From contig NZ_CANMPQ010000003.1 of NCBI RefSeq assembly GCF_947499695.1, positions 186,001 through 250,000 on the forward strand: 64,000 bases of DNA, in the 5' to 3' direction. The position numbers were made by a program, and so were the translations under genes. Below, piece after piece: positions 48,481-58,745 of the stretch; positions within the stretch are counted from its first letter, which is position 1, and each line of letters opens with the position of its first letter. The notes below the pieces were generated by a model that did not search any database, was not told the origin of the DNA, and saw only the letters and a list, made by a program, of their open reading frames with translations. The stretch comes from an uncultured Allomuricauda sp. (GTDB lineage Bacteria; Bacteroidota; Bacteroidia; Flavobacteriales; Flavobacteriaceae).

Positions 48481-48846
48481 CTATTGTCTAATTAACAGCT
48501 TGTCTACCCGAATCATTAATTCTTCAGGATTGAATGGTTTCACGATGTAATCATCTGCGCCCAACCGAAGGCATTCCACCCGATCAGAACTATTGTCCCT
48601 GCAGCTTAGCACGATAATAGGGATATCGGAAAAGACCCCAGATTCCTTGATTCTTTTAATCAGTTCAAAACCATCCATTTCTGGCATTTCAAGATCTGTA
48701 ATTACCAAATCGGGTAAATTACCTTCCTGAAGCCATGAAATGGCGGCCAGTCCATTTTCCATTGTTGTTACGGAATGGGATTGTCCCAAAAACTGTGCGA
48801 CCAGCTCACTCAACGATTGTTTGTCATCTACTACCAGTATTTTCAT
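48481..48846 (-). CDS. CheY-like single-domain response regulator
   Basis: 121 residues, receiver only. Intact active site: Asp7/Asp8 acidic pair in VVDDKQS, phosphoacceptor Asp51 in VITDLEMPEMDG, Ser81 in IVLSCRD and Lys103 in IVKPFNP. No output domain, so it must act by protein contact. It is the first gene of the operon continuing with the pseudo-receiver sugar transferase 1 base downstream, making heterodimerisation with that domain a natural hypothesis. The 16-bp motif lies 44 bases upstream (48883-48898). Its kinase is not adjacent. Confidence 0.92.
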   Translation of the reverse strand: MKILVVDDKQSLSELVAQFLGQSHSVTTMENGLAAISWLQEGNLPDLVITDLEMPEMDGFELIKRIKESGVFSDIPIIVLSCRDNSSDRVECLRLGADDYIVKPFNPEELMIRVDKLLIRQ

Positions 48847-51603: not shown

Positions 51604-51906
51604 CTATATCCGATCAGGACTCAGGATATAATTGGTTTTGGTAGCTTTCAAAATTTCGGTTACACATGAGTTTTGTCTACCGATTAAAGAAACTACCTTG
51701 TTTTGTCGTGCTGACTTTTGGTATAACTTCTCAAAAAAATGAGCCGAGGCGGAATCCAATTCCGTTACGCTTTCCAAACTGACCACAATATTGTCATGTT
51801 GCTCCATGATATGGTCAAAATATGAATTCAGTGCTCCGACATGTTGGGTGGTTACTCTTCCAAAAATTTCAAAAATTCCTTTGTTCTCTTTAATTTCCAA
51901 TGACAT
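51604..51906 (-). CDS. STAS-domain protein
   Basis: 100 residues, one STAS domain like anti-sigma factor antagonists and SpoIIAA relatives. The beta-alpha pattern is clear: SLEIKENKGIFEIFGRVT, NIVVSLESVTELDSASAHFFEKLY with the phosphorylatable Ser position (in DSAS) and NKVVSLIGRQNSCVTEI. It is 105 bases downstream of the LytTR regulator gene and could be the last gene of that operon. Its partner kinase or anti-sigma factor is not visible. Role unknown. Confidence 0.85.
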   Translation of the reverse strand: MSLEIKENKGIFEIFGRVTTQHVGALNSYFDHIMEQHDNIVVSLESVTELDSASAHFFEKLYQKSARQNKVVSLIGRQNSCVTEILKATKTNYILSPDRI

Positions 51907-52011
51907 ATGTTAAAAGATTTAGTTGGTATTATTCTATCATTTAACATTTCCAAAAGTGCTCTTGTATATAACGTAAATTACTCGTAAAATTGTAGTCTTT
52001 TTCCTTCTTTT

Positions 52012-52722
52012 TTATAAAAGATTTAGTCGTTGCATCAACTCAGGTCTGTTTGAACGGCTGATAGGAATTACACTTCGCTCAATTAATACGCTATTGTCCT
52101 GAATATCTATAATTTGAGTAAAGTTTATGATGAAAGACCTATGAATTTGCAAAAACCGGGATTGGGGTAATTTTTCTTTTATTTTCTTCAAAGTGGAATG
52201 CACCCGATATTGTTTTTGTTGTGTTTTAATCTCAATATAATCTCCTTGTGCCTCAATGAGCAGAATATCACGGAATTTTAATTTAATCAACCTACGGTCG
52301 ATATTGATATACAAATCTTCATCTTCAGCCTGCATCATTTGGGTTTCTGTTGATTCAATGCTAGCTGATTTGAATGCATTATTCAATTTGACAATACATT
52401 TTTGAAAACGTTCATGGGTAATGGGTTTTACCAAATAATCAACAATAAACTCATAGCCGTAAGCCTCAATAGCAAAATCTTTATCCGAAGTTGTTAAAAC
52501 TATTTTAGGTGGGTTATTGACCATTTCAATAAAGTCCACCCCTGTTAGTTTGGGCATATGGATATCCAAAAAAATCAAATCCACCGAGTTGTGCTTTAAA
52601 AACTTTAATGCTTCCAACGCATTGGGAAATTCGGCTATCACCTCCATTTCAGGAATAGCTTTGCACAGTTCCAAAACTATGGCCCTTGCACTCGCTTCGT
52701 CATCTACTATTATACATTTCAC
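52012..52722 (-). CDS. LytTR-family response regulator
   Basis: 236 residues. Receiver with Asp7/Asp8, phospho-Asp53 in LIFLDIHMPKLTG, Thr in VLTTSDKD and Lys99 in YLVKPI. The C-terminal LytTR DNA-binding domain (about 145-236) shows INIDRRLIKLKFRDILLIEAQ, DYIEIKTQQKQYRVH and SRFLQIHRSFIINFTQI. DNA-binding response regulators of this kind often control cell-surface polysaccharides. It starts 1 base after the Hpt gene stop, so it is the likely end point of the upstream phosphorelay. Confidence 0.93.
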   Translation of the reverse strand: MKCIIVDDEASARAIVLELCKAIPEMEVIAEFPNALEALKFLKHNSVDLIFLDIHMPKLTGVDFIEMVNNPPKIVLTTSDKDFAIEAYGYEFIVDYLVKPITHERFQKCIVKLNNAFKSASIESTETQMMQAEDEDLYINIDRRLIKLKFRDILLIEAQGDYIEIKTQQKQYRVHSTLKKIKEKLPQSRFLQIHRSFIINFTQIIDIQDNSVLIERSVIPISRSNRPELMQRLNLL

Positions 52723-52723
52723 C

Positions 52724-53047
52724 TTAAGCTATTTTTAAAATAAACTCTTCTACTGATTGCAGTATCTGCTTAAACTCTTCTTTGAGTTTTGTATCACCAT
52801 ATTTTAGGTCCTCCTCATATTTAACGGCCAACTTGTAGCCTCCTGTCAAACCCAGGATACCCAATTTGTGTTTTATTTTGTGTACAATTTTGGCTGACTC
52901 TTCTAAATTATCACTCTCCAAGTTTTCCAAATAATCATTTTTTTCCTTTGGAAATTCGGTCTGGATAATGGTCAAAAATTTCTTTTCAAAATCCTCGTTT
53001 CCTCCGGAAATCTCCTTTATGTAATCGAGGTTAGGTTGCTCAGCCAT
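52724..53047 (-). CDS. Histidine phosphotransfer (Hpt) protein
   Basis: 107 residues, helical. The phosphotransfer histidine is His56 in AKIVHKIKHKLGILGL, matching the Hpt signature of a histidine followed by a helix to glycine. It would carry phosphate from the kinases upstream to the LytTR regulator downstream. Its start overlaps the end of the second kinase gene by 8 bases (ATGGCTGA), a coupling arrangement, and its stop is 1 base from the regulator gene. Confidence 0.92.
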   Translation of the reverse strand: MAEQPNLDYIKEISGGNEDFEKKFLTIIQTEFPKEKNDYLENLESDNLEESAKIVHKIKHKLGILGLTGGYKLAVKYEEDLKYGDTKLKEEFKQILQSVEEFILKIA

Positions 53048-54098
53048 TGGGGTTATTTTTAATTGTAAAAAAGAAGGTAGTGCCCATACCCTCTTCCGAG
53101 GACAGCCAGATATCTCCTTTATAATAATTTATAATTTTCTTTACCAAAGCAAGACCGATTCCTGTTGCTCCAGAGTTGTTTTCAAGTTTCTTGAACATTC
53201 CAAAAATACCGGTCTGTAAATGCTTGGGTATTCCTTTTCCGTTGTCGGTAACACTAAAAAGCCATCCATCATACTCCTCTTTCACATCGATCATAATACT
53301 TCCTTCAGCTTTATCCTCGGTAGCAGTTATAGCATTGGTAATCAGGTTTTTGAACAATTGCTCTATTCGGTATTTACCCGTCAACAATTTGGGTAAATGT
53401 TTGCTCTTTTTTATAGTAACATTTTCAGGTACGTATATGGTGCGCTCTATTTCGGCAATAAGTTGATTTAAATCAACCGTGGATGCATTTTCTTGGATGG
53501 AATCTATGGTTGAATGCCTTAAAATCCCATCAATCAAGCTATCCATCTTAGCAAGGTTTTGAAATATTAATTGTACGTTTTCCTTGCTCTGTTCTTTAAA
53601 AACTTCTTGCCCATCCTCAAACACCCAACTCACCAAGGAGTGTACATTTCTAATAGGGGATTTAAGGTCATGTGATACCATGTGGGCATAATTGTTCAGG
53701 GATTCGTTTTGTTGTTCTAAATTCTTTAAGAGCATATTTTTTTCGGCTGTTATTTCAACCAGTTTGTGCGCTTGTTTCTCAATATCCTCCACCAATTTTT
53801 GAGGATTAAAGTCAAGACTTCCATTTATTCGGTCCGAGGTTTTATCCTGCATGGAAGCGACTGCCCTACTCAAGGATTCAAGTACCTTACGTTGGTTCTC
53901 CGCTTCCTTGTTCAAACGTAAATTGGCATTGTACAATTCTTCAGAACTTAAAGACGTTGCCCGTTGAATCATCTTCAGTTTTTCATCAAAATCTGAATAC
54001 GACTTACTTACGGAATCAAAAAACACCTCCAACTCAGAACGTTCGATCAATTCCTTGGGAAAAAATTTCTTTATCTGTCTTTTAAGTAGAGAATGCAT
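53040..54098 (-). CDS. Sensor histidine kinase, NosP-associated (NahK-like) type
   Basis: 352 residues, no membrane span. N-terminal segment (LLKRQIKKFFPKE, SVSKSYSDFDEKLKMIQRATSLSSEEL) resembles the conserved first domain of kinases encoded beside FIST proteins, as I recall them. Then a coiled coil, the HisKA domain with NYAHMVSHDLKSPIRN (phospho-His about 142), and the ATPase domain with NAITATED, DNGKGIPKH and GATGIGLALVKKI. It lacks its own sensor domain and probably takes its input from the FIST protein. The FIST stop codon and this ATG are directly adjacent. Confidence 0.92.
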   Translation of the reverse strand: MHSLLKRQIKKFFPKELIERSELEVFFDSVSKSYSDFDEKLKMIQRATSLSSEELYNANLRLNKEAENQRKVLESLSRAVASMQDKTSDRINGSLDFNPQKLVEDIEKQAHKLVEITAEKNMLLKNLEQQNESLNNYAHMVSHDLKSPIRNVHSLVSWVFEDGQEVFKEQSKENVQLIFQNLAKMDSLIDGILRHSTIDSIQENASTVDLNQLIAEIERTIYVPENVTIKKSKHLPKLLTGKYRIEQLFKNLITNAITATEDKAEGSIMIDVKEEYDGWLFSVTDNGKGIPKHLQTGIFGMFKKLENNSGATGIGLALVKKIINYYKGDIWLSSEEGMGTTFFFTIKNNPNG

Positions 54099-55226
54099 TT
54101 ATTCACTCATTAATGTTAAGGTCATGGTCTGGTTATGTAATTGGCATTCGTTTTTTCCAGCGAACGGCGCCATTTCACCATAAGAATAAAATCCGGCGAT
54201 CTTAGCTTGGTCACCAATAATATCTGCCACCTCTTCAATTTCATCTTCAGTTCGCTGATCCAAAACCAACTTTCTTCCCACGCAGCTCACCAATATGGCC
54301 AACTCCGGTTTACTTTTCCTATCCCGCATAGCCAATTCGGCTGCATTCGAAGCTCCTTCCGCGATGTCATCCATAGTGGACATCATTAATTGCACCTTGG
54401 AGTTTAGAGGTACGTCTCCTGCTAGAATCATAGAATTAGCATCTTCATCAATATTCAGAATAGTCCTTACCAATGGCTCTGATTGGTCGTTTTGCTGCAC
54501 GGTCAATGGATATAAAAGAGCCGCTTGTGGGAGTTCCGCTGCCTTTTCTCCCAGATATTTTTTATACAAGTCGAGTGCTGGCTTTCCGTCAATTTCATAA
54601 AGCACGTTGCCTTCAGACTTTGTAATGGTTCTTTCCGGTCCAAATGGGGTCCAACCTCCAAAATTGGCATAAGACACTTCCAAATCTTCACCATAGAAAC
54701 CTACGGCAACTACTTCTCCCTGTTTGGGAGTTTCATTATATGAAGTCAATGTTTTTTCGAACCGAGCTCCATCCCCACACAAGCCGCCGGTAATTGAAGC
54801 TTTAAATCCTTCAGCAGATTCAAGACCTTCAATAAGTCCGCTTCCGTTCACAAAACTCCCATCGGAAACAATGAACATATGGTTCAGTTTTTTAAAGTCA
54901 AATTGATTTGAAATCGCCAATCCCATATTTTCGATATCCACAAAATCCGATACATTTTCACTTACAATTTCAAACTTGGTCCGCTCGAATTCTATAGCGG
55001 TCAGTGTTATACTTTCTTCGAAAACATGGGTTTCCATGATTTCACCAGATGTGGAGCCAAATACTAGGTGTCCGTCGGGATACATCTTTTTCACCTCCTC
55101 ATATAAGTCTTCTGACTCTAGCAAAAACCGATCTCCAAAAACCAAAACCAATGGTTCTTTTAGGGGTTGGTCCTGAATGAAATCCCACTCACCATCTTTG
55201 AATCGTTTAGCTTGATTTACTTTCAT
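54099..55226 (-). CDS. FIST-domain protein, candidate NosP-type NO sensor
   Basis: 375 residues with FIST_N (about 25-200: LVFGDRFLLESEDL, GSTSGEIM, GGLCGDGARF) and FIST_C (about 210-375, ending GFYSYGEMAPF and CQLHNQTMTLTLM). FIST proteins are cytosolic sensors; one characterised group, NosP, binds haem and nitric oxide and inhibits its partner kinase NahK. The haem ligand is not obvious from sequence alone. Gene order here (kinase directly downstream, Hpt and regulator after it) matches nosP/nahK loci. It overlaps the multi-PAS kinase gene upstream by 4 bases. Confidence 0.85.
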   Translation of the reverse strand: MKVNQAKRFKDGEWDFIQDQPLKEPLVLVFGDRFLLESEDLYEEVKKMYPDGHLVFGSTSGEIMETHVFEESITLTAIEFERTKFEIVSENVSDFVDIENMGLAISNQFDFKKLNHMFIVSDGSFVNGSGLIEGLESAEGFKASITGGLCGDGARFEKTLTSYNETPKQGEVVAVGFYGEDLEVSYANFGGWTPFGPERTITKSEGNVLYEIDGKPALDLYKKYLGEKAAELPQAALLYPLTVQQNDQSEPLVRTILNIDEDANSMILAGDVPLNSKVQLMMSTMDDIAEGASNAAELAMRDRKSKPELAILVSCVGRKLVLDQRTEDEIEEVADIIGDQAKIAGFYSYGEMAPFAGKNECQLHNQTMTLTLMSE

Positions 55227-57604
55227 TTTTTCTTGATTTTAGATTCTTTTTCCAATGTAAAATAGAAGGTAGTTCCTTCTCCAATTTCGCTTTCCAGCCA
55301 TACTTTCCCACGATATCTATCAATGATTTTTTTGACTATGGAAAGTCCAATTCCTGTTGAGCGTTCATTATTCCCTATTGACTGGAATATTTGAAAAATC
55401 TTTTCATGATACTCCTTCGGAATTCCAACACCGTTATCTTTTATGCTGAATTCCCAATGGGTCTCATGTTCCTTGTAATCTATTTCCACGAGTCCATCCT
55501 TTTTATCAATGTTTACTACTGCATTGCTTAAAAAGTTTTGGAACAATTGATGGATTTTGGTCTTGTCAGCCTTTATTGCCGGCAATTCTCTTTTGGTCTT
55601 TATTTTTACATTTTCAGGGATATAAATAATCTCACCGATTTCCCGAATTACCCCATTAACATCGACATCGGTATTGTCAAGGGTATCACTGTTTACCGTA
55701 GAGTATTTTAGAATTCCCGTGATCAGCTTGTCCATCCCCTCAATTTTCTCTTGCATCATTTTGAGGTTGTACCGTCCACTTTCATCTAAGGCATCCTTAT
55801 AATCATCGTATAACCAACTGGCCAAAGCACTTACGCTTCGCAAAGGGGATTTAAGGTCATGGGATACAATATGGGCGTACTCCTGAAGTCCTTTATTACT
55901 TGCCTCTAATTCATTTAACAGATTCTCTTTTTGAAGTTCAAGATTTTTTTGATCTGTGATGTCCAGATGAATTCCTATCGAACCGACAACGTTTCCTGCA
56001 TCATCGTATCTTGGAGCACCGCTCACCAACCAAAATCTCTTTTCGCCATTGGCTATTTTTATGGCAACTTCATAAGAGTCTGAGATTCCTTCTTGTCTTT
56101 TCTTCTTTTGTAGCTTCAGTTCATCTTCACTTTCATGGACAATAGGCATAGCTTCATATATATTTTTGCCTATAAGGTCATCTTCAGAGTACCCGATCAT
56201 ATCAGCAAAACTCTGGTTGACCATTAAAATATTGCCACTACCATCAACCTCAACCAAACCAAGATTCATGTTGGCAATTATGCTACTGTATTTTTCTTTT
56301 TGTATCTCGAGATTCTTTCTGTAGTTTTTTCTTAAGGTTACATCATTATAACTCCATAAGTGTCCTTGATACTCGCCGTTGTTGAACAGCGGAATATAGT
56401 CTCGCTCAAAGGTTCGTCCGTCCAAAAGTTCCATTTCATCGGCAGTGACCACTTCCTTTTCATGGATTACTTGATCAATCCTTTTCATGGATTCCTCAGG
56501 CTCGAGAAACATATTTTTGTATTTGTGGATAGACCTTTCACTGTTGACTCCCTTTAGCACATCTGGTGAAACGGGAATGGCGAAAAGATCGCAAAACTTC
56601 TGGTTGGCCAAAACAATTTTCCTGTCCTGATCTTCCAATAAAATACCTGTTTGCAAATTCTTGATGAGCGTCGCCATACGCTCTTCGGACGCTCTTATTT
56701 TTTCCTCAGAAATCTTTTCATGGGTAATATCTTCAATCATTGCCACACTATATTCAATATCTCCACTAGAGTCCATCAGGGAGCTCATTGAAGTTTTTCC
56801 GTACAGTGTTTCGCCATTCTTTTTGTAGAATTTTCGAACAATGGAGAATTTCTTGGTGTCATCATCCAGACTTTTCTGAAGTAAATTTTCGTAGAGATTG
56901 CTATCCTCAAGTGAGGATATATCATTTATTGAAAGTTTTTTGAGTTCCAGTTCTGAATATCCCAAAAGATCTACGAAGGATTTATTTGCCTTTATAATTT
57001 TGTCTTTAACAATCAACAGAATCCCCAATGAGGAATTCTCAACAATAATATCCTGCTGTTTTTTTTGATTTTCCAATAGTTTCCGAATCTCTACATCTTG
57101 GGTTATATCTCGAATAACTCCTTGTGCAGCAATGGGTCTCCCTTCATCATTGTAGATTAAACTTGCGTTGATATTTACGTGCTTTTCACCTAGATTTTTC
57201 GTGACAATTTTCGCAGAATAGTTCTTTAAAATCCCAACCTGCATTAAGGTCTGGAACGATTCTGCAGTGTACTCCAAATAGTCAGGATGAACCAGATTGG
57301 ATAGATTTACCTCTTCTTTGGTATGGTCAAACCCCAGGAATTCTTTAGCCGAAGCATTCATATTGATTACGTTGGTCATCATGTCCATGACCACATAGGG
57401 ATCAATAATATTGATAAAGGCACTATCAATGCGGTTTCCTTTGTTGTTCACCAAGGTCTCCAAACGTCCATTTGCTTCTTTCAGATGAAGTGAAGCATCA
57501 TACAATTCCTTCGCTTTACTTTCTAGAAGGTTTTCGGCAGTCTTACGGGCTTTTTTCTCCCGTTCCAATGCTCTCTTTAATATGGAAACTTGGCTATTAT
57601 CCAT
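55223..57604 (-). CDS. Multi-PAS sensor histidine kinase, H-NOX partner
   Basis: I take the start as 57604, where ATG overlaps the end of the H-NOX gene (ATGGATAA, 8 bases). The 793 residues include a coiled coil (1-60) and about four PAS domains: DPYVVMDMMTNVINMN, SSLGILLIVKDKIIKAN, TLIKNLQTGILLEDQDRKIVLAN and SIIANMNLGLVEVDGSGNILMVN. A HisKA domain with YAHIVSHDLKSPLRS and an ATPase with DNGVGIPKEYHEKIFQIFQSI and GIGLSIVKKI follow. No membrane span and no receiver. In characterised systems H-NOX binds and regulates its cognate kinase, so NO control of this enzyme is plausible. Confidence 0.92.
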   Translation of the reverse strand: MDNSQVSILKRALEREKKARKTAENLLESKAKELYDASLHLKEANGRLETLVNNKGNRIDSAFINIIDPYVVMDMMTNVINMNASAKEFLGFDHTKEEVNLSNLVHPDYLEYTAESFQTLMQVGILKNYSAKIVTKNLGEKHVNINASLIYNDEGRPIAAQGVIRDITQDVEIRKLLENQKKQQDIIVENSSLGILLIVKDKIIKANKSFVDLLGYSELELKKLSINDISSLEDSNLYENLLQKSLDDDTKKFSIVRKFYKKNGETLYGKTSMSSLMDSSGDIEYSVAMIEDITHEKISEEKIRASEERMATLIKNLQTGILLEDQDRKIVLANQKFCDLFAIPVSPDVLKGVNSERSIHKYKNMFLEPEESMKRIDQVIHEKEVVTADEMELLDGRTFERDYIPLFNNGEYQGHLWSYNDVTLRKNYRKNLEIQKEKYSSIIANMNLGLVEVDGSGNILMVNQSFADMIGYSEDDLIGKNIYEAMPIVHESEDELKLQKKKRQEGISDSYEVAIKIANGEKRFWLVSGAPRYDDAGNVVGSIGIHLDITDQKNLELQKENLLNELEASNKGLQEYAHIVSHDLKSPLRSVSALASWLYDDYKDALDESGRYNLKMMQEKIEGMDKLITGILKYSTVNSDTLDNTDVDVNGVIREIGEIIYIPENVKIKTKRELPAIKADKTKIHQLFQNFLSNAVVNIDKKDGLVEIDYKEHETHWEFSIKDNGVGIPKEYHEKIFQIFQSIGNNERSTGIGLSIVKKIIDRYRGKVWLESEIGEGTTFYFTLEKESKIKKK

Positions 57605-58139
57605 TTTGGACGATCGCAAACCTGACTTCTGTACCGTTTTCATTCAATAATTTATAATCGACTTTTACTACTTTTTCGAAATATTCAAACGTTTTTACAA
57701 TAAGCCCATGGGCCAAAGCATACAATCCTCTTGAAGATGTATAGATCATCTCCAAGCTGTTGTCAGTTTTGGAAAGAATTTTAAACTCGGGGAGTTCGGC
57801 ATCCGGATATAACTTTCGGACATGTATGTGGATATGATCCTCAATACAGTTCAAAAGCCCTATTGGACTTTTGTAGCTGGATACAACTTCTGGATGTGCG
57901 GCAACAAGACCATCGAATAGATAATATCCAAACGAGTACAACAAATCTTGTTGAGAAATGCCTGTAGTATTGGTTAATTCCGATAACAGACTAACCATTT
58001 CATTGAAGTCATAGGTACCTACAGAAGTATAAGCACCACCAGAAGGAAGATCACAATTTTCTATAATGGTATCAACAACCTCCAAACCGTAGGTTGCCTC
58101 GACCATTTCTAAAAACTCGGTAAACACAATTCCTTTCAT
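57597..58139 (-). CDS. H-NOX haem protein, predicted NO sensor
   Basis: 180 residues, the length of stand-alone bacterial H-NOX domains. It begins MKGIVFTEFLEMVEATYG, the usual N-terminus. The proximal haem histidine is His104 by alignment to the spacing before Tyr-Pro (HIHVRKLYPD), and the haem-carboxylate motif Y-x-S-x-R is present as Y133-T-S135-S-R137. No tyrosine is seen at the distal position that stabilises O2 in Thermoanaerobacter H-NOX (nearby Leu142), which favours a NO sensor. It overlaps its kinase gene by 8 bases and heads the whole phosphorelay operon. A 16-bp motif lies 32 bases upstream. Confidence 0.92.
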   Translation of the reverse strand: MKGIVFTEFLEMVEATYGLEVVDTIIENCDLPSGGAYTSVGTYDFNEMVSLLSELTNTTGISQQDLLYSFGYYLFDGLVAAHPEVVSSYKSPIGLLNCIEDHIHIHVRKLYPDAELPEFKILSKTDNSLEMIYTSSRGLYALAHGLIVKTFEYFEKVVKVDYKLLNENGTEVRFAIVQNG

Positions 58140-58216: not shown

Positions 58217-58615
58217 TTAGCCTTTGATCAATTCACTGATTTCCCAATAATCAAAAACCTTCTTTAATTTGGATTCGTAATCTTCATATTTTAAAGGCTT
58301 TATGATATAACCAGCGATTCCTATCTCAAAGCATTTTAATAAATCGACCCGATTTTCCGATGTGGTCAAAATTATCGTCGGCAAATATTTTAGTCTATCA
58401 TCTGCCTTTATAGTGGTAAGAAATTCAATCCCGCTCATACGCGGCATATTTAAATCCAAAAGGATAATATCAGGCAATGGACTATTCTTTAAGATTTCCA
58501 AAGCTTCTTCTCCATTTTTAGCCTCGGTTATCTCGTGCTTGGATTCGAACTTTGTAATTGCTCGTTGCAACTTCATTGTTTCGATCATGTCGTCTTCTAT
58601 GAACAGTACATTCAT
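58217..58615 (-). CDS. CheY-like single-domain response regulator
   Basis: 132 residues, receiver only: FIEDD acidic pair, phosphoacceptor Asp54 in IILLDLNMPRMSG, Thr in ILTTSENR and Lys in YIIKPLKYEDY. It resembles Rcp1-type single receivers. It lies next to the H-NOX operon, 77 bases upstream, and may be an alternative phosphate acceptor for its kinases. It has its own promoter (58644-58671). No output domain. Confidence 0.92.
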   Translation of the reverse strand: MNVLFIEDDMIETMKLQRAITKFESKHEITEAKNGEEALEILKNSPLPDIILLDLNMPRMSGIEFLTTIKADDRLKYLPTIILTTSENRVDLLKCFEIGIAGYIIKPLKYEDYESKLKKVFDYWEISELIKG

Positions 58616-58671: not shown

Positions 58672-58745
58672 AATAGTCAAATCCAGAAAAACTGTCGACG
58701 AATGGTAAAAATGTTTCGGTGAAATTTAGAAGATTTTTCCTAGTA

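Follow-up and report, generated by a model that had tools for sequence, protein, structure and literature searches.

A conserved Flavobacteriaceae operon linking H-NOX and FIST sensors to a predicted split phosphorelay

Can two different predicted gas sensors, an H-NOX protein and a FIST protein, report to one signalling output? The question is raised by an operon in a stretch of 64,000 nucleotides (hereafter the window) from an uncultured Allomuricauda sp. (contig NZ_CANMPQ010000003.1, positions 186,001 to 250,000), in which all genes lie on the minus strand in the order REC - H-NOX - HK1 - FIST - HK2 - Hpt - LytTR, that is, a stand-alone receiver (REC), the H-NOX protein, a first histidine kinase (HK1), the FIST protein, a second kinase (HK2), a histidine phosphotransfer protein (Hpt) and a LytTR response regulator. 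An initial annotation of this DNA had read the locus as two nitric oxide (NO) inputs, linked to one Hpt-regulator output and feeding one biofilm switch. Our ORF and profile checks bear out the gene places and families that it gave, and its overlaps of 8, 4, 0 and 8 bases, its 1-base gap and the 105-base gap before a neighbouring STAS gene were all recomputed as correct; its gene list was right for the genes it named and overlooked the REC gene at the operon start. We propose that the operon may encode a branched, split phosphorelay with two sensor inputs and one output, a reading to which we give a probability of roughly 0.6 from sequence evidence.

Conservation and relay anatomy of the operon

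We show that the gene order is a conserved system in many Flavobacteriaceae and not a one-strain accident. ORFs were called by script, not annotated, and gene orders are those of labelled genes with gaps below 650 bases. In a family sample of 299 genomes, HNOB was present in 105 and FIST_C in 85, with both in 66 (Fisher p = 6e-22, a value that ignores shared ancestry), and H-NOX and FIST lay within 8 kb on one strand in 57. Among the 56 such loci examined in detail, the window left out, 55 have the order REC-HNOX-HK-FIST-HK, the exception (L091) being a different arrangement, and 50 have the complete REC-to-LytTR order. The initial annotation had suggested searching Flavobacteriaceae for HNOB and FIST beside Hpt and LytTR genes; the arrangement proved conserved, and its recurrence over family genomes rules out a chance order in one strain. 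The whole order with a window-type H-NOX was also found at 60 of the best 80 of 567 FIST relatives (the named set, which by this choice leans to near relatives), in Flagellimonas, Maribacter, Cellulophaga, Zobellia, Aquimarina and other genera; the nearest named relative of the window FIST in this set is that of Flagellimonas sp. S3867, at 96% identity. Some loci of the named and family sets come from the same genomes, so the two are not independent. In a phylum sample, 27 of 395 genomes carried H-NOX; a FIST search of the 20 that had not been covered before was positive in 14, and in 7 of the 20 the FIST gene follows H-NOX on its strand at a distance of 2.6-3.4 kb, one of the seven belonging to another family of the class.

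Domain profiles find no receiver in either kinase, and a kinase histidine cannot hand phosphate directly to the histidine of Hpt, so a stand-alone REC is needed between them. The locus thus holds the parts of a split relay: receiver-less kinases, a stand-alone REC, an Hpt, a regulator and conserved phospho-sites. In an alignment of 141 rows (the window and 140 relatives, both locus sets mixed), D8, D9, D54, T84 and K106 of REC, His56 of Hpt, and D7, D8, D53 and K99 of the LytTR regulator are each kept in at least 97% of rows. The Hpt domain itself scores 20.6 bits, under its cut-off of 24.6; Pfam Hpt is matched at E ≤ 0.01 by 15 of 23 aligned members, and the own genome holds only one further Hpt match at E ≤ 1. 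The earlier view that both sensors are linked to a single Hpt-regulator output is therefore retained as regards a shared output arm, and amended as regards direct transfer from kinase to Hpt, REC being the missing step.

The kinases themselves suggest where the two branches meet. We compared their dimerization and histidine phosphotransfer (DHp) domains with those of the own-genome kinases (13 with the motif, of 16 HisKA matches) and found HK1 and HK2 to be mutual nearest neighbours at 42% identity, the next values being 26% and 20%. Over 124 loci the HK1-HK2 DHp mean is 47%, the corresponding values against 18 lone-FIST-pair kinases being 17% and 14%. Based on this likeness, both kinases likely act on one REC. 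An alternative, which we consider quite unlikely, is that one transcript carries two insulated pathways, with H-NOX/HK1 using REC as its output and FIST/HK2 using Hpt and LytTR, or the reverse. REC does adjoin H-NOX and has no output domain, and the available text of PMC11237717 describes a Legionella hnox2 operon that combines a kinase with a CheY-like single-domain regulator. Against insulation, Hpt and LytTR stay beside HK1 in 40 of 50 loci without FIST-HK2, HK1 and HK2 have a common DHp class unlike the other own-genome kinases compared, and Hpt requires an Asp donor, the operon having no stand-alone one other than REC.

A shared relay with two inputs also has to face several contrary observations. 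DHp likeness between HK1 and HK2 of the same locus (0.472) is not above that across loci (0.475), which indicates a common class and no locus-by-locus co-adaptation. LytTR does not directly follow Hpt in 4 of the 56 examined loci (one has it one gene on), and one of the 56 lacks both Hpt and LytTR. Finally, H-NOX can be the sensor that goes missing: no H-NOX ORF above 40 bits was found in 5 of the 80 named loci, and three of these five (L230, L237 and L261) keep REC-HK-FIST-HK-Hpt-LytTR.

Sensor inputs and their kinases

The H-NOX protein scores far above its family cut-off (Table 1), and among 21 sequences H102, Y133 and S135 are invariant and R137 is kept in at least 90%; we take H102 to be the proximal haem histidine and Y133/S135/R137 the YxSxR motif. 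We consider it highly probable that the protein is an NO sensor. Its best solved relatives are 6bde (180 bits) and 6bdd (177 bits), the latter identified as the Kordia algicida H-NOX in the available part of PMC7356049.

The H-NOX slot does not always hold this type. In 11 Flavobacterium records among the 80 named loci it is filled by a distant H-NOX of the Nostoc/soluble guanylate cyclase (sGC) type: two of these tested match HNOB at 170.9 and 126 bits, and that of L263 scores 171 bits to Nostoc Alr2278, being also near sGC beta-1, versus 34 bits to window-type 6bde. Their partner kinases carry an N-terminal HNOBA domain (72, 64 and 61 bits in three tested) on an unchanged DHp class (five shown), and one Flavobacterium record (L217) carries the window-type H-NOX. 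Across 181 H-NOX genes above 40 bits (106 from the family sample and 75 from the named set), H-NOX type agrees with the kinase N-terminus in 180 (168 of window type, 12 of Flavobacterium type, none mixed), the remaining one lying at a contig end. The FIST slot behaves likewise in two genomes (G118 and G267), where the resident FIST is divergent (44 and 41 bits to that of the window, both FIST domains present) and is paired with a different kinase of the same DHp class. Sensor slots are thus refilled by distant same-family sensors, and the kinase N-terminus changes while the phosphoacceptor class stays. HK1 lengths cluster near 400, 530, 660-700 and 790 residues, a spacing of roughly one PAS unit.

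The FIST-HK2 pair is a removable cassette, because most H-NOX loci without it keep the exact remaining order. The family sample has 52 H-NOX places with no adjacent FIST; of the 50 examined, 36 read exactly REC-HNOX-HK-Hpt-LytTR, 4 add a further gene to the same five, and the other 10 are incomplete, lie at contig ends or have a different arrangement. Conversely, one genome (G002) has FIST-HK2 by themselves and another (G050) HK-FIST-HK by themselves, with the core elsewhere in the genome. A tree of REC, Hpt and LytTR for 90 loci (modest support, 27 of 87 branches starred; H-NOX loss not sampled) requires at least 20 changes in FIST presence, of which 7 are forced by well-supported branches, gain and loss not being distinguished. 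Such turnover would be expected if FIST-HK2 were an often lost, weakly selected passenger in an H-NOX operon, an explanation that we judge improbable. FIST and HK2 nearly always occur together, the exception (L141) being an HK2-like kinase without FIST; the pair is in place in 55 of the 56 examined loci and in the window; and its slot has been refilled in the two genomes above by another FIST with its own kinase. Moreover, FIST distances follow H-NOX distances (r = 0.82, 49 loci), suggesting that the two have long resided together and that loss has occurred repeatedly. Apart from these, L172 (G049:C9) is a decaying copy of the operon with an internal stop in H-NOX, which keeps a short FIST ORF of 140 residues without HK2, and Saccharicrinis aurantiacus (L266) carries a lone HK-FIST-HK with no REC, H-NOX, Hpt or LytTR.

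What the FIST protein senses is a separate matter. The claim that it is a NosP was rejected as a matter of family membership, its score to the NCBIfam NosP equivalog being 52.2 bits for a cut-off of 450; all 28 aligned FIST members match that model, far under the cut-off (best E 1.2e-18). The layout is NosP-like, the FIST gene adjoining a kinase with no recognised sensor domain. A phmmer search found no solved FIST relative by sequence, and the four best matches of an AlphaFold2 model (pLDDT 90.9) in the PDB are FBXO22 FIST domains, human FBXO22 at the top, which is uninformative on haem. The sole invariant histidine among 32 sequences, His364, lies in a C-terminal HNxT motif that is present too in Azospirillum and Nostoc FIST proteins, so it is no specific haem mark. 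The missed cut-off and this lone histidine both weaken the case for a second NO sensor. On balance, we lean slightly towards a haem or NO sensor. A sizeable minority possibility is that only H-NOX senses NO and that FIST responds to another cue (haem itself, redox or another small ligand), so that the relay would integrate NO with an unrelated signal. This would agree with the NosP score, with best fold matches that include no haem sensors, and with the V. cholerae FIST protein CdpA, reported as haem-responsive in the available text of PMC8846402. It sits less well with B. pseudomallei NosP, for which NO-dependent control was shown and which uses an adjacent kinase without a recognised sensor domain, the layout of FIST-HK2 (PMC12570481, available text).

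The first residues of HK2 may explain how such a sensor reaches its kinase. We built a profile from residues 1-85 of 11 HK2 proteins and searched the ORFs of the examined loci with it. Of 135 HK2-group kinases encoded after FIST, 133 match, the two without a match being those of the divergent-FIST loci; the profile also matches 17 of 18 lone-FIST-pair kinases (E < 1e-3) and two Azospirillum FIST kinases, and none of 168 HK1. Since the lone-pair kinases share the module and differ in DHp class, the N-terminus follows the sensor and the DHp domain follows the output. Two loci (L069 and L213, an Aureicoccus marinus record) have HK2 split into two ORFs, a 90-residue docking module and a kinase part. 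Separately, two to four divergent FIST genes stand in tandem at L164, L166 and L167, and at L163, L165, L170 and L171, in genomes of the same bacterial family; several of these genes precede kinase-like ORFs and ORFs of great length (up to 2328 residues). Plasmids of Legionella species carry FIST genes 40.8% identical to that of the window, the closest plasmid FIST genes among the matches listed.

A predicted operator and candidate targets

Alignment of the DNA upstream of REC revealed, some 108 bases ahead of that gene, a direct repeat with a 21-bp period, of which TTCRYCKA-N13-TTCRYCKA is the broader form. It scores at least 13/16 in 137 of 172 loci, versus 2 of 860 shuffles, and the broader consensus precedes REC in 157 of the 172. 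LytTR regulators bind paired direct repeats about two helical turns apart, and the operon's own LytTR regulator probably acts on this repeat.

A weight matrix trained on the REC-upstream sites only also placed sites before 26 of 36 DUF6923/T9SS-tail secreted-protein genes, 14 of 33 STAS genes, 9 of 40 members of a 416-residue family with no Pfam or NCBIfam match, and 7 of 22 glycosyltransferases. The four classes can share one site, and at least one of them has a site in 42 of the 68 core loci that hold any (for operator and neighbour counts the core set leaves out L091, L100 and L101). As controls, sites precede 15 of 815 other ORFs and 0 of 396 other operon genes, and the matrix gave 228 sites versus 0 with its columns reversed. 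The repeat could belong to a regulator other than the operon's LytTR, which we regard as unlikely: the own genome does hold 27 LytTR domains, yet none of the 325 ORFs of lone-FIST loci and none of the 45 of own-genome kinase loci is preceded by the repeat, and among genus genomes a strict site is present in 4 of the 17 that have H-NOX versus 1 of the 23 that lack it, though these numbers are small.

Other results count against the proposed operator. The matrix result upstream of REC itself (86 of 96) is circular, since the matrix was trained there, and seven other recurrent neighbour families are without sites (0 of 49, 14, 19, 18, 8, 5 and 10). The window itself shows a strong site at the operon only, and strict sites are absent from 13 of the 17 H-NOX-bearing genus genomes. 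Over 40 genus genomes the strict pattern gave 6 matches versus 3 for a control pattern: three before the operon, one upstream of a DUF4842 gene, one upstream of what seems to be the orthologue of that gene in G703 (55% identity over 469 columns) and one elsewhere. A whole-genome scan allowing 2 mismatches was rejected as uninformative (123 matches in the own genome versus 168 for the control). Exact matches in the own genome are limited to the operon and a site 127 bases before the DUF4842 gene (L308:4257-6423, G000:C1), which likely encodes a secreted protein, with a lipoprotein-like signal by eye.

The initial annotation had placed the switch beside an exopolysaccharide (EPS) locus. As conserved neighbours, the window's EPS genes were rejected for the two tested, an MBOAT gene and its adjoining gene, whose best matches lie only in the window; what stands of the EPS link is the repeat before STAS, glycosyltransferase and secreted-protein genes in many relatives. 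STAS was likewise rejected as a core operon member, being within 650 bases after LytTR in only 6 of 56 examined loci and in 23 of the 80 named, mostly closer, relatives. A 686-residue TPR/BcsC-like neighbour occurs in 54 of 97 core loci versus 0 of 27 lone-FIST loci (controls without L154 and L157) and was set aside as a regulator target, with no operator in 49 cases.

Putting these parts together, H-NOX would bind NO and set HK1, and FIST would bind a ligand, probably haem or NO, and set HK2 via its N-terminal module. Both kinases, of one phosphoacceptor class, would phosphorylate the stand-alone REC, from which phosphate would pass to His56 of Hpt and on to Asp53 of the LytTR regulator, a chain suggested by anatomy and conserved residues. 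The regulator would then bind the repeat before its own operon as feedback and, in relatives, the repeat before STAS/glycosyltransferase and secreted-protein genes, the sites being seen as sequence. The sensor and the kinase N-terminus would form an exchangeable input unit, and DHp, REC, Hpt and LytTR a fixed output. More tentatively, and with chances that we put a little short of even, the operon may be a two-gas-sensor logic device: selection in many Flavobacteriaceae would keep H-NOX and FIST inputs on one split relay, either slot could be refilled by a distant same-family sensor with a matching kinase N-terminus, LytTR would control surface polysaccharide and secreted proteins via the predicted operator, and the HK2 module would dock FIST proteins in general, being present in Alphaproteobacteria (Azospirillum) as well. 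If this is true, H-NOX and FIST/NosP, which are separate NO sensors with separate kinases in the papers cited here, converge on one relay in one operon, so that removing either cassette would directly test how they divide the work. The cassette losses, refilled slots and exchanged kinase N-termini seen in relatives would then serve as a natural experiment on sensor-kinase wiring, the HK2 module would predict where FIST docks, and the operator would yield a list of predicted gas-sensing targets in a major marine bacterial group.

Related systems and features of the window

As here, the B. subtilis relay KinA/KinB - Spo0F - Spo0B - Spo0A distributes its steps over separate proteins, with several kinases, one single-domain receiver, one phosphotransferase and one DNA-binding regulator; it is unlike the window in its sensors, Hpt type and output domain, and the window genes are all in one operon. 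The Vibrio relay output LuxO is a sigma-54 regulator, not a LytTR protein, and the Vibrio genes are scattered. In the Vibrio H-NOX - HqsK - LuxU - LuxO system, as given in the available texts of PMC8738867 and PMC6769237, H-NOX likewise sets a kinase that feeds an Hpt and a DNA-binding regulator common to other kinases; however, HqsK is a hybrid kinase and the shared inputs are quorum sensors, whereas the window operon has non-hybrid kinases and a FIST input. NosP, a FIST protein, sets a kinase encoded beside it both in V. cholerae NosP - VpsS - LuxU, where VpsS lacks a sensory domain (PMC6769237, available text), and in Legionella NosP - NahK - NarR (PMC11237717, available text). Unlike both, the window has a FIST under the NosP cut-off, a non-hybrid HK2 and an operon that includes an H-NOX and no c-di-GMP enzyme. 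S. oneidensis HnoX - HnoK - HnoB/HnoD also couples an H-NOX and a kinase, with NO input to biofilm regulation, but its output is a c-di-GMP phosphodiesterase and its inhibitor in place of Hpt and LytTR (PMC8846402, available text).

The initial annotation had considered an operon with both sensors undescribed in Bacteroidota. We found no described dual operon in the open-licence texts cited here, although FIST genes near hnox had already been reported in a 2022 review, in group 1 of an H-NOX similarity network (PMC8738867); the available part of that account gives no operon architecture, relay, docking module, operator or taxa for the group. Within the open-licence literature, the available texts of PMC8738867, PMC11237717, PMC12570481, PMC6769237 and PMC8846402 contain no dual operon, split relay or docking module. 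For H-NOX in Flavobacteriaceae, again in open-licence literature and among the matches listed, only PMC8738867 has HNOB together with Flavobacterium, the latter in its reference list; a further search gave no paper with H-NOX among the matches listed.

The features of the operon are collected in Table 1. The ATG of HK1 at 57604 is implied by the 8-base overlap, the longest ORF beginning at 57643, and its N-terminal coiled module reads ALxREKxARKxAExxLExK. REC lies 77 bases upstream of H-NOX in the window; this gap is at most 15 bases in 59 of 95 pairs of L043-L142.

Table 1. Positions of the operon genes, the putative docking module, the predicted operator and the neighbouring STAS gene in the window.
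Feature	Position	Strand	Remarks
Predicted operator TTCACCGA-N13-TTCGTCGA	58695..58723	-	Direct repeat, 21-bp period; starts 108 bases before the REC start codon
Stand-alone REC (CheY-like)	58217..58615	-	First gene of the operon; Pfam Response_reg 81 bits; predicted phosphate carrier from the kinases to Hpt
H-NOX, haem gas sensor (predicted)	57597..58139	-	HNOB 125.7 bits (curated cut-off 25.5)
HK1, multi-PAS kinase	55223..57604	-	Coiled N-terminal module, several PAS, DHp and ATPase; no receiver
FIST protein	54099..55226	-	FIST N 155.8 bits, FIST C 126.9 bits; NosP-like, under the NosP cut-off
HK2 kinase	53040..54098	-	No recognised sensor domain; same DHp class as HK1
HK2 residues 1-85 (MHSLLKRQIKK...LSSEELYNAN)	53844..54098	-	Predicted FIST-docking module
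Hpt phosphotransfer protein	52724..53047	-	His56
LytTR response regulator (REC and LytTR), output	52012..52722	-	GTG start; LytTR 73.8 bits (cut-off 22.6), Response_reg 64.1 bits
STAS gene	51604..51906	-	Operon neighbour, not core; likely regulon member in relatives

Two further receivers were noticed near operons of this kind. In the window, a second stand-alone REC (48481-48846) lies inside the EPS genes, beside a sugar transferase. In L053, L096, L225, L227, L232, L233 and L240 (the named ones being Maribacter), a convergent REC (137 aa) and kinase (~595 aa) stand directly after LytTR.

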